A program made the translations under genes and the position numbers. The notes under the pieces were generated by a model. It saw nothing but the letters and a program-made list of their open reading frames with translations, did no database searches and was not told where the DNA came from. This document shows positions 3 to 27,220 of a DNA stretch of 42,661 nucleotides, piece by piece (position 1 is the stretch's first letter; every line of letters begins with the position of its first letter). The stretch is from Thioalkalivibrio sp. (GTDB taxonomy: Bacteria; Pseudomonadota; Gammaproteobacteria; Ectothiorhodospirales; Ectothiorhodospiraceae): contig RECA01000100.1 in assembly GCA_007692435.1 (NCBI GenBank), forward strand, positions 1 to 42,661, given 5' to 3'.

Positions 3-47
3 GGGTGCCAGGCGGCGGGTGCCAGGCGGCGGCGGGTGCCTGGCGGC
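3..47. repeat. GC-rich short tandem repeat (GGGTGCCAGGCGGC, about 3 units)
   Basis: Units at 3-16, 17-30 and 34-47 (last unit GGGTGCCTGGCGGC) with a GGC insert at 31-33; abuts the first stem-loop element. Confidence 0.8.
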
Positions 48-150
48 GGATCTGGCGGGCTGGCCGGTGGGACGCCGTGAATACATCCATGTAGGCTTGA
101 CGGCAGCATCCTTGCTGCCGACACCCACCGGCCAGCCCGCCAGATCCGCC
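45..150 (-). repeat. Conserved-loop/variable-stem element, copy 1
   Basis: 27-bp perfect inverted repeat 45-71/124-150 (GGCGGATCTGGCGGGCTGGCCGGTGGG on the minus strand) enclosing a 52-nt loop (72-123). The loop's reverse complement is nearly identical to copies 2 and 3. Confidence 0.9.
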
Positions 151-570: not shown

Positions 571-680
571 GATGCGGAGCCGACCTCCCGGTCTGCGGGT
601 GTCGGCAGCAGGGATGCTGCCGTCAAGCCTACATGGAGGTATTCACGGCGTCCCGCAGACCGGGAGGTCGGCTCCGCATC
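571..680 (+). repeat. Conserved-loop/variable-stem element, copy 2
   Basis: 29-bp perfect inverted repeat 571-599/652-680 (GATGCGGAGCCGACCTCCCGGTCTGCGGG) enclosing a 52-nt loop (600-651). Confidence 0.92.
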
Positions 681-746: not shown

Positions 747-1487
747 TCAGCCCACCCGCCAGATCAGGGTGGCCATGCGGCCGCAGGTGCCGTCGCGGCG
801 ATAGGAGAAGAAGGTCTCGGACTCGGCGTGGGTGCAGCGGCCGCCGCCGTGGATTTCGCGCAGGCCGGCGCGCTCGAGCCTGAGGCGCGCGAGGCGGTAG
901 ATGTCGGCGAACCAGCGGTCGCCGGTGCCTGGCCTGAAGGCGCCCGTGGCTTCGGCATCCTGGCCGATAAAGGCCGCGCGGACCTCCGGTCCGACCTCGA
1001 AGGCCTCCGGGCCGATCGCGGGTCCGAGCCAGGCGGTGACCTGTGCCGGGGGATATCCCAGGGCATCGAGGGTGGCCTCCAGCACGCCGCCGGCCAGGCC
1101 GCGCCAGCCCGCGTGCGCGGCGGCGACCTCGCGTCCGTCGAGGGTCGCGAAGAGCACCGGCAGGCAATCGGCGGTCTGCACGCTGCAGACCTCGCCCGGA
1201 CCCCGGGCGACCACCGCGTCGGCCTCGAGCGCGCCGGCCATCGCCGCCGCCTCAGCCACCGCGGTACCGTGCACCTGTGTCGGCCACAGCGGCGGCCGCG
1301 GCAGGTCCAGTGCCGCGCCCAGCAGGCTCCGGTTGCGGTGGACGGCCGCGGGGTCGTCGCCCGTGTGCAGCGCGAGGTTGAGGCTCTGCCAGGGCCCGGT
1401 GCTGACGCCACCGGCACGGGTGGTCTGGACCGCGCGCAGGTTCGCCGGCAGCGGCCAGTCGGGAACGATCAGCGGCAGGGCGCTCAC
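747..1487 (-). CDS. pgeF: Purine nucleoside phosphorylase / laccase-domain protein (YfiH/PgeF family)
   Basis: VSALPLIVPDWPLPANLRAVQTTRAGGVS...VHGTAV...CSVQTADCLPVLFA...AAAHAGWRGLAGGVLE...GPAIGPEAFEVG. GTG start overlaps the rluD stop. Confidence 0.9.
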   Translation of the reverse strand: MSALPLIVPDWPLPANLRAVQTTRAGGVSTGPWQSLNLALHTGDDPAAVHRNRSLLGAALDLPRPPLWPTQVHGTAVAEAAAMAGALEADAVVARGPGEVCSVQTADCLPVLFATLDGREVAAAHAGWRGLAGGVLEATLDALGYPPAQVTAWLGPAIGPEAFEVGPEVRAAFIGQDAEATGAFRPGTGDRWFADIYRLARLRLERAGLREIHGGGRCTHAESETFFSYRRDGTCGRMATLIWRVG

Positions 1488-25592: not shown

Positions 25593-26969
25593 TCAGTTCC
25601 GCTCGGTGGACTGCGCCGGCCAGCTGGTGAACAGGGCGCGCAGGCCGCCCTCGTCGAAGCGCGAGGGATCCACCTTCAGGTAGACCGACGCCTCGCGGGC
25701 ACTCACGCGGGCCTCGCCGACGCCGGCCAGTTCCCCGATCCGGGACTCCAGTTCCGCCGGGGCGGCGCGCCAGGGCGCCGGGAGCCCGTAGGCGCGGTTC
25801 GACAGGTGGCTCGGAGGCACCATGGTGCCGGCAACGACGAGCCAGACCAGCGCCCCCACCAGGCCGAGGGCGAAGACCCCGGTCGGCCCGACGTAGGTCA
25901 TCAACGCACCGCCGAGCACCCCGCCGGCGAAGATGCCGAGGAACTGGCTGGAGGCGAAGACCCCCATCGCAGTGCCCTTCTCGATCACCGGGGCGGTCTT
26001 CGCCACCAGCGAAGGCAGCACCGCCTCGAGCAGGTTGAACGCGGCGAAGAACAGCACAAGCACCACGCCCAGGAGCAGCCAGTGATTCGCGATGGGCAGC
26101 AGCCCCTGCACCACCAGCAACACGGCGATGGCCCCCAGCAGAGAGGGCTTCAGCGCACGCCTGCGCTCGGCCCGGATCACCGCCGGAATCATCAGCGCGA
26201 AGCCCAGCACCAGCACCGGAAGGTAGACCTGGTAGTGCTGCGCCGGAGGCAGTTCGAGACCGGTCACCAGCATCAGCGGGAGCACCAGAAAATTCGCCGC
26301 CAGCGTCATGTGCAGGATGAACACTCCGATGTTCAGCCGCATCAGCTCGCGGTCCCGCAGCACATGCGACAGGCCACCGGGGACCGGAACCATGTCCGGG
26401 TGCGGCAGTGACCGCAGCGGCCGCGGTACCCAGACAAACAGCACCACCAGGGCCACCACGCCCAGGCCCGCCGTCACCCAGAAGATGCCCGAAAGCCCGA
26501 ACCACCGGTCCACGATCGGACCCAGCACCATCGCCGCGCTGAAGCTCAGGCCGATCGAAAGCCCGATCACCGCCAGTGCACGGGTGCGCCGCTCCTCCGT
26601 GATCAGATCGGCGGTGAGGGCCAGCACCACCGCCGCCACTGCCCCCGCACCCTGCAGCGCCCGGCCGAGGATCAGCCCGTACACCGTCTCCGCCAGCGCG
26701 GCCACCACGCTTCCGACGATCAACAGCACCAGGCCCAGCGCAATCAGCGGCCTGCGCCCGATACGGTCGGACAGGATCCCGAACGGAATCTGCAGCAGCG
26801 CCTGCGTGAGCCCGTAGATTCCCAGCGCCATCCCCATCAGGAACGGAGTCGCGCCGGGAAGCACGTCCGAATACAGCACCAGCACCGGCAGCACCATGAA
26901 CAACCCGACCATGCGCACCGCGTAGATCGCGGCAAGCCCGGACGTGGCGCGCAGCTCGGTAGGGGTCAT
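25593..26969 (-). CDS. MFS transporter (YajR-like, with C-terminal ferredoxin-like domain)
   Basis: 12-TM MFS pattern (YAVRMVGLFMVLPVLVLYSDVL...GIYGLTQALLQIPFGILSDRIGRRPLI) plus soluble C-terminus LESRIGELAGVGEARVSAREASVYLKVD. Confidence 0.88.
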   Translation of the reverse strand: MTPTELRATSGLAAIYAVRMVGLFMVLPVLVLYSDVLPGATPFLMGMALGIYGLTQALLQIPFGILSDRIGRRPLIALGLVLLIVGSVVAALAETVYGLILGRALQGAGAVAAVVLALTADLITEERRTRALAVIGLSIGLSFSAAMVLGPIVDRWFGLSGIFWVTAGLGVVALVVLFVWVPRPLRSLPHPDMVPVPGGLSHVLRDRELMRLNIGVFILHMTLAANFLVLPLMLVTGLELPPAQHYQVYLPVLVLGFALMIPAVIRAERRRALKPSLLGAIAVLLVVQGLLPIANHWLLLGVVLVLFFAAFNLLEAVLPSLVAKTAPVIEKGTAMGVFASSQFLGIFAGGVLGGALMTYVGPTGVFALGLVGALVWLVVAGTMVPPSHLSNRAYGLPAPWRAAPAELESRIGELAGVGEARVSAREASVYLKVDPSRFDEGGLRALFTSWPAQSTERN

Positions 26970-27108: not shown

Positions 27109-27220
27109 GAGGACGGTGCCGGGGGAGCCGCCCGCGGGTGTCGGCAGCAGGGATGCTGCCGTCAAGCCTACATGGACGTGTCTACGGCGTCCCGCGGGCG
27201 GCTCCCCCGGCACCGTCCTC
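27109..27220 (+). repeat. Conserved-loop/variable-stem element, copy 3
   Basis: 30-bp perfect inverted repeat 27109-27138/27191-27220 (GAGGACGGTGCCGGGGGAGCCGCCCGCGGG) enclosing a 52-nt loop (27139-27190) that differs from copy 2 at 4 positions. Confidence 0.93.

Follow-up and report, generated by a model that had tools for sequence, protein, structure and literature searches.

The window analysed here, that is, the whole stretch of 42,661 nucleotides, is contig C188 of a 2.7-Mb Thioalkalivibrio genome assembled as 244 contigs, and it carries three copies of a hairpin element. Copy 2 lies next to a laccase family gene. Copy 3 is flanked by a divergently oriented MFS transporter gene and uvrA, and an ortholog with near-identical arms (L226) is present in genome G026. 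In each copy, two inverted-repeat arms, which form the outer stem P1, enclose a 52-nt apical part with the hairpins P2 and P3. The element strand is the one that reads GGG-TGTC...GGCGT-CCC. The features of the window are as follows, with bit scores given for matches to the element model R1.

45-150, minus strand: element copy 1; P1 arms 124-150 and 45-71 (27 bp, perfect); apical part 72-123
98-123, minus strand: copy 1, hairpin P2, with AAGGA at 109-113
74-96, minus strand: copy 1, hairpin P3, with ATGGA at 86-90
58-137: copy 1, match to model R1, 97.4 bits
361-430: hybrid remnant; left half like copy 2, joined within P2 to a right-hand part like copy 1
571-680, plus strand: element copy 2; P1 arms 571-599 and 652-680 (29 bp, perfect); 52-nt apical part 600-651
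586-665: copy 2, match to model R1, 96.8 bits
600-625, plus strand: copy 2, hairpin P2, ANGGA loop motif AGGGA at 610-614 (evidence: P2 covariation in alignments A1 and A2, loop statistics)
627-649, plus strand: copy 2, hairpin P3, lower stem GCC..GGC, upper stem TACA..GGTA, ANGGA loop motif ATGGA at 633-637
747-1487, minus strand: gene of the multicopper polyphenol oxidoreductase laccase family (Cu-oxidase_4), stop codon 66 bp from copy 2
25593-26969, minus strand: MFS transporter gene, left of copy 3
27109-27220, plus strand: element copy 3; P1 arms 27109-27138 and 27191-27220 (30 bp, perfect); apical part 27139-27190
27139-27164 and 27166-27188, plus strand: copy 3, hairpins P2 and P3
27125-27204: copy 3, match to model R1, 89.8 bits
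27309-30182, plus strand: uvrA, right of copy 3

An earlier note on this DNA had placed three copies at these positions, with a loop of exactly 52 nt, perfect arms of 27, 29 and 30 bp, and loop differences of two positions between copies 1 and 2 and of four between copies 2 and 3, all of which was confirmed. The home genome contains 17 full copies. In 16 of these, the arms are inverted repeats that measure 18-33 bp, mostly 28-30 bp with a mode of 29, and are mostly perfect. The mean core identity among these copies is 0.95, and arm base pairs 4-27 have a mean identity of 0.41 vs 0.31 for shuffled arms. The combination of a constant core with locus-specific paired arms is far beyond chance. Two observations that, according to the earlier note, would have spoken against its description are absent in the genus: arms are not common to different loci and nearly all full copies possess inverted-repeat arms. 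Its proposal of copy-specific arms holds for this genus and does not extend to the whole family, since in Stenotrophomonas, Methylotuvimicrobium and Yersinia many copies have arms in common. The 'CTACATGGACGT' repeats that it suspected in other gammaproteobacteria were found.

A comparison of positions 101-345 with 381-625 revealed an identity of 66.5%, vs 45.5% after shuffling. The region 101-625 reads as an old tandem duplication that was broken within P2 of copy 1 and P2 of copy 2, and the hybrid remnant at 361-430 is the junction expected from a duplication broken in this way. At many loci, the base directly outside the left arm is A (63-74% of the copies) and the arm usually starts with G, often as GGA/GG with the slash marking the arm boundary, such that the element has a defined outer boundary where pairing ends.

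Structure and predicted ligand of the element RNA

The RNA of the element forms a three-way junction closed by P1, a long outer stem of free sequence and about 23-30 bp in length; the 52-nt apex consists of P2, a linker and P3. The consensus of P2 is UG-U-CGGCAGCA-NGGA-UGCUGCCG-U-CA and that of P3 is GCC-UACA-NGGA-NGUA-UUYAC-GGC. Two alignments, drawn from about 30 genera, were used to examine the fold. In A1, consisting of 27 diverse copies, most of which were retrieved with a DNA pattern that fixed P3, 88.9% of the cells are paired, 22 pairs have both bases changed, and covariation reaches a score of 0.599, vs 0.168 for shuffled and about 0.1 for slid alignments. A2 is independent of the P3 pattern; it comprises the best model match from each of 29 other genomes plus the window copy, with R1 and A2 both biased to consensus-like matches. 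Within A2, 97.0% of the cells are paired, 26 of 31 pairs have both bases changed, with a score of 0.834 vs 0.195 shuffled. The lower P3 stem covaries (GCC/GGC, GGC/GCC, GCG/CGC, GCU/AGC), as does the upper P3 stem (UACA/UGUA, CCCA/UGGG, UCCA/UGGA).

The mismatches in P1 indicate which nucleic acid strand is under constraint. Read on the GGA strand, 49 G-U vs 17 A-C mismatches occur in the genus (p=1e-4); the corresponding numbers are 102 vs 19 in other taxa (p=6e-15) and 73 vs 12 in Stenotrophomonas. Palindromy of the DNA alone would result in equal numbers of G-T and A-C, and the excess of G-U therefore points to an RNA-level constraint on the GGA strand. Strand-biased mutation is an unlikely source of the excess, given that the loop can turn round within its locus, as described below; constraint on a folded single strand of DNA is a less probable alternative. 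The element thus very probably has an RNA-level structure on the GGA strand. One of the two readings offered in the earlier note, a structured RNA signal with free stem sequence, receives strong support from the covariation and from the one-strand excess of G-U over A-C.

The P3 loop reads CANGGANG and the P2 loop ANGGA in all 30 sequences of A2. In P2 the preceding C and the following G are likewise invariant, and the full 10-mer is retained in 22 of the 30; in both loop motifs it is precisely the N positions that vary. The two ANGGA motifs start 23 nt apart in 289 of 325 elements. The CsrA consensus in the literature is RUACARGGAUGU. In the structure of RsmE bound to hcnA RNA, optimal contacts are provided by A/UCANGGANGU/A (PMC5864733). 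The commonest form of P3, UACAGGGAUGU, agrees with both the optimal RsmE motif and the CsrA consensus, and the hairpin loops of the element present the A(N)GGA motif, matching A/UCANGGANGU/A, by which binding sites of CsrA/RsmA are recognised. CsrA (PF02599) is encoded in the home genome (G000), with a score of 90 bits, and in every one of the 23 near-complete genomes of the genus. The Rfam model of CsrB has no match in the genus (0 of 30 genomes), and RsmY has none over the cut-off. In addition to the ordinary CsrA of G000 on contig C32, a separate open frame of 162 amino acids with two tandem CsrA domains (46.3 and 52.9 bits) is located at G000:C39:851-1195, and similar double-domain frames are found in G011, G012 and G028.

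From these sequence data, the element is likely to be a dispersed dual-site CsrA/RsmA-binding RNA, and binding of CsrA, considered for itself, is slightly easier to accept. Transcription of the element in this organism is presumed; the RNA may arise by read-through or from a promoter of its own. According to this model, P2 and P3 would each expose CANGGANG, the recognition motif of CsrA, RsmA and RsmE, and one CsrA dimer could clamp both sites since these are about 23 nt apart. The apical sequence would be conserved by whatever binds there and P1 would be selected only for pairing. More speculatively, a perfect P1 duplex of about 28 bp would suffice for RNase III, whose cut would free the apex. 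That titration of CsrA is the main effect can be put forward only tentatively, with chances somewhat below even. Half of the genus lacks the element entirely although CsrA is present, so that the element is dispensable, which counts against the model. If the model is correct, a large share of Gammaproteobacteria would each hold dual CsrA/RsmA sites at tens of dispersed loci, almost none of them catalogued, and CsrA titration would have to be seen anew where classical sponges are undetected, as in this genus, or where copies abound, as in Stenotrophomonas.

The GGA hairpin loops are shared with CsrB/CsrC, RsmX/Y/Z/W and RsmU, in which they sequester CsrA/RsmA; RsmU of Xanthomonas is a 3'-UTR-derived RsmA sponge (PMC7694677). 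However, the CsrB/CsrC and Rsm sRNAs are mostly encoded at a single locus and contain several sites, whereas the element is a two-site module at many loci. Nothing in the window reaches any Rfam cut-off. A high-scoring match to an Rfam microRNA reflects no more than the long perfect stem.

The architecture of the element resembles that of TwoAYGGAY (RF01731), an RNA reported by Weinberg 2010 (PMC2864571) and proposed to bind CsrA on the strength of its loops (PMC4333381). Both have a long, poorly conserved outer stem around two hairpins with GGA loops flanked by A, with GCC..GGC conserved in the stem of the second hairpin. The element relative L033 aligns with RF01731 on the same strand and with both hairpins, at 36.8 bits, below the gathering cut-off of 43 bits; the window copies have no RF01731 match. 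The two hairpins inside the outer stem are present, and their loops agree with AYGGAY only in part, reading ANGGAN with N mostly G or U. The element differs from TwoAYGGAY in its consensus, which is CANGGANG and not AYGGAY, and in its conserved UUYAC, its fixed 52-nt apex and its high-copy dispersal. Matches to RF01731 over the cut-off in the genus are located at places other than those of the element. The element would work in the manner of TwoAYGGAY and is probably its sister, but scores outside that family. A second family of like architecture (long outer stem, two GGA hairpins, e.g. GGCGGCCATGGATGGCCGCC and GCCCAGGGATGGC) occurs in the same genomes, at G000:C33:445-566, G026:C258:9838-9957, G020:C155:7310-7433, G018:C210:702-827 and G025:C1:2448-2573, as well as beside L016 and L225; three of its places exceed the TwoAYGGAY cut-off.

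The element copy of Yersinia similis is a full match to Ysr224 (RF02770) on the opposite strand, with 129.9 bits at a gathering cut-off of 70 bits. Other members score 20-34 bits, below the cut-off, among them the window copy with 29.5 bits, likewise on the opposite strand. Ysr224 is reported to occur in multiple copies and to be differently expressed in Y. ruckeri (PMC12112432), and to respond to temperature in Y. pseudotuberculosis (PMC9029176). The Rfam family differs from the element in being Yersinia-specific, in lying on the opposite strand and in a model devoid of the GGA-loop structure. Its annotation opposite to the GGA strand counts against the CsrA reading; if that reading is true, the Rfam sRNA Ysr224 would be one branch of the element family, possibly modelled on the other strand.

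Distribution and gene context

Model R1 identified the element in 72 of 369 sampled Gammaproteobacteria genomes (about 20%), belonging to 65 of 270 genera. In a phylum-wide sample, it was found in 21 of 299 genomes, all of them Gammaproteobacteria. The element, which is likely to bind CsrA and is widespread but for the most part uncatalogued, is present in 14 of the 30 genomes of the genus and in 8 of 10 Stenotrophomonas genomes, the latter with 17-126 copies each; E. coli genomes and plasmids yielded no match. An origin as a phage element was ruled out by a single match among 2.9 million viral contigs. In Stenotrophomonas G302, G397, G400 and G402-G404, many copies are paired head to head at a distance of about 250 bp and have homologous flanks, resembling a composite repeat unit.

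Copy numbers of up to 126 per Stenotrophomonas genome, often in head-to-head pairs with common flanks, could also be expected of non-autonomous mobile DNA (REP/REPIN- or MITE-like), mobilised in trans by a Y1/RAYT or other enzyme. The enzyme would recognise the folded single strand, the core would be kept for the enzyme and the GGA loops would be transposase recognition features. The subfamilies with common arms in Methylotuvimicrobium, Stenotrophomonas and Yersinia fit this explanation, and a strand-specific hairpin of single-stranded DNA could likewise tolerate G-T better than A-C. Similar to REP, BIME and the GTAG- and CGTC-tagged palindromes, the element is short, palindromic, intergenic and dispersed, often in head-to-head pairs. 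However, REP sequences have stems of 5-13 bp, small loops, a conserved stem sequence and GTAG or CGTC tags (PMC3733652). By contrast, P1 of the element measures 23-30 bp with free sequence and the apex is structured; a P1 of about 28 bp and an apex of 52 nt fall outside the catalogued REP formats (PMC3733652), and no GTAG tag abuts the hairpin. Assignment to the CGTC-tagged repeats (P2 begins T/CGTC) was rejected because the required A-T pairs at the stem base are missing. The co-occurring RAYT/Y1 transposase that the earlier note had proposed to look for did not emerge: Y1_Tnp genes (PF01797) are present in all 23 near-complete genomes of the genus, including those free of copies, so that none tracks the element. 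Also arguing against mobile DNA are the orthologous positions of most copies in the genus and the coincidence of the degenerate positions with those of the CsrA/RsmE motif. Mobilisation is therefore rather improbable as the explanation of the element.

A home-made gene caller identified the genes on both sides of 71 copies. Most often the two genes are convergent (28 copies), followed by co-directional genes in the two orientations (20 and 14) and divergent genes (9). The upstream gene is co-directional with the element in 42 of the 71 cases; the orientation is not clearly biased, an argument against a role in cis as part of a 3'-UTR. The frequency of convergent pairs, together with the extreme stability of the stem (about -87 to -99 kcal/mol), would suit a hairpin at gene ends that acts as a bidirectional terminator, stabilises RNA or insulates transcripts, with the apex as a by-product. 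However, three sets of copies lack, on both strands, the T-run after P1 that an intrinsic terminator would require, 9 copies lie between divergent genes, and both the strongly conserved ANGGA apex and the strand-specific tolerance of G-U would be left unexplained, which makes such a function very unlikely.

Arm drift and loop inversion

A comparison of the flanks revealed that most home-genome copies lie between the same genes, at the same place, in other species of the genus. The species that have copies at orthologous positions are 75-95% identical. Arm identity decreases gradually with divergence, as exemplified by L006/L220 (0.89), L006/L146 (0.68) and L006/L160 (0.57). In equally oriented pairs whose arms are identical to at least 0.6, 55 P1 positions were altered on both sides with Watson-Crick pairing kept, 26 were switched between Watson-Crick and G-U, and 38 were changed to or from a mismatch. 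The locus-specific arms are best understood as the residue of long drift under a pairing constraint, in which old, positionally conserved copies would drift through compensatory and G-U changes. The common arms in Stenotrophomonas, Methylotuvimicrobium and Yersinia are to be expected from a more recent expansion. The perfection of the arms could partly stem from arm-to-arm correction at the DNA level. If true, drift would explain a repeat class in which the stem is different at every locus.

The other reading of the earlier note, that a mobile 52-nt loop has its arms regenerated at each new site of insertion, one flank being copied into the other by fold-back or templated synthesis, could draw on arms that differ between loci within one genome despite a 95% identical core and on the L232 site in G027, where only the left arm and 9 nt of core remain, but it is most improbable: L232 retains GGGACGCCG of the core and is thus a deletion derivative, the arms are inherited together with the copy in other lineages, and orthologous arms are homologous and diverge gradually with paired changes. 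Regeneration of the arms is hence neither needed nor supported. Comparison of orthologous sites, as suggested in the earlier note, disclosed no clean empty junction, bare palindrome or clear single-arm precursor at any site; the element-free sites in G027, G020 and G004 are too diverged or are deletions.

An unexpected finding, well supported in this genus, is the inversion of the loop. Between collinear flanks and matching arms, the 52-nt apex of orthologous copies often points the other way, as it does in about half of the distant pairs. Among position-mapped comparisons in the genus, which share genomes and are not all independent, 16 have the same and 3 the inverted orientation at a flank identity of at least 85%, and 15 the same and 22 the inverted orientation below 85%. 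In the alignments of L177 with L191 and of L165 with L180, flanks and arms match and the loop is reverse-complemented. The inverted cases include G002 and G003, each assembled as a single contig, so that the inversion is not merely an assembly fault. For Stenotrophomonas, 33 position-mapped comparisons, not all independent, at a flank identity of at least 85% revealed no inversion.

Inverted repeats in the DNA would let the loop flip occasionally between its arms, perhaps by recombination or by template switching, and the inversion process could also help to keep both arms alike. The hairpin-associated minute inversions of chloroplast DNA, for example in the trnH-psbA spacer (PMC2903610), come nearest among known phenomena and are similar in that a loop between inverted repeats flips repeatedly in evolution; they differ in that the inverting loops there are short plastid spacers, whereas the loop of the element belongs to a bacterial chromosome and is a module of 52 conserved nt. 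If the proposed CsrA-binding model is correct, the copies would provide a natural set of orthologous hairpins for gauging loop inversion and arm co-evolution in bacterial chromosomes. It is conceivable, though improbable, that flipping switches the transcribed strand, such that a copy would give either a CsrA-binding RNA or the inert complement, depending on how it lies relative to transcription nearby. Such strand switching would amount to a slow, recombinase-free phase variation in CsrA titration, with a genome-wide reservoir of dual sites.

Other palindromes were encountered at or beside sites of the element. At the gpsA-side site of G027 and G020 (L233, L234), a different palindrome (GGGAGCGGCCTCCGGCCGCGAT...GACCGGAGGTCGCTCC) replaces the element. 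At L223 (G026:C16), GGGGACAGATTTCGAATCTGTCCCC repeats, which belong to a separate palindromic repeat family, lie on both sides of the element.
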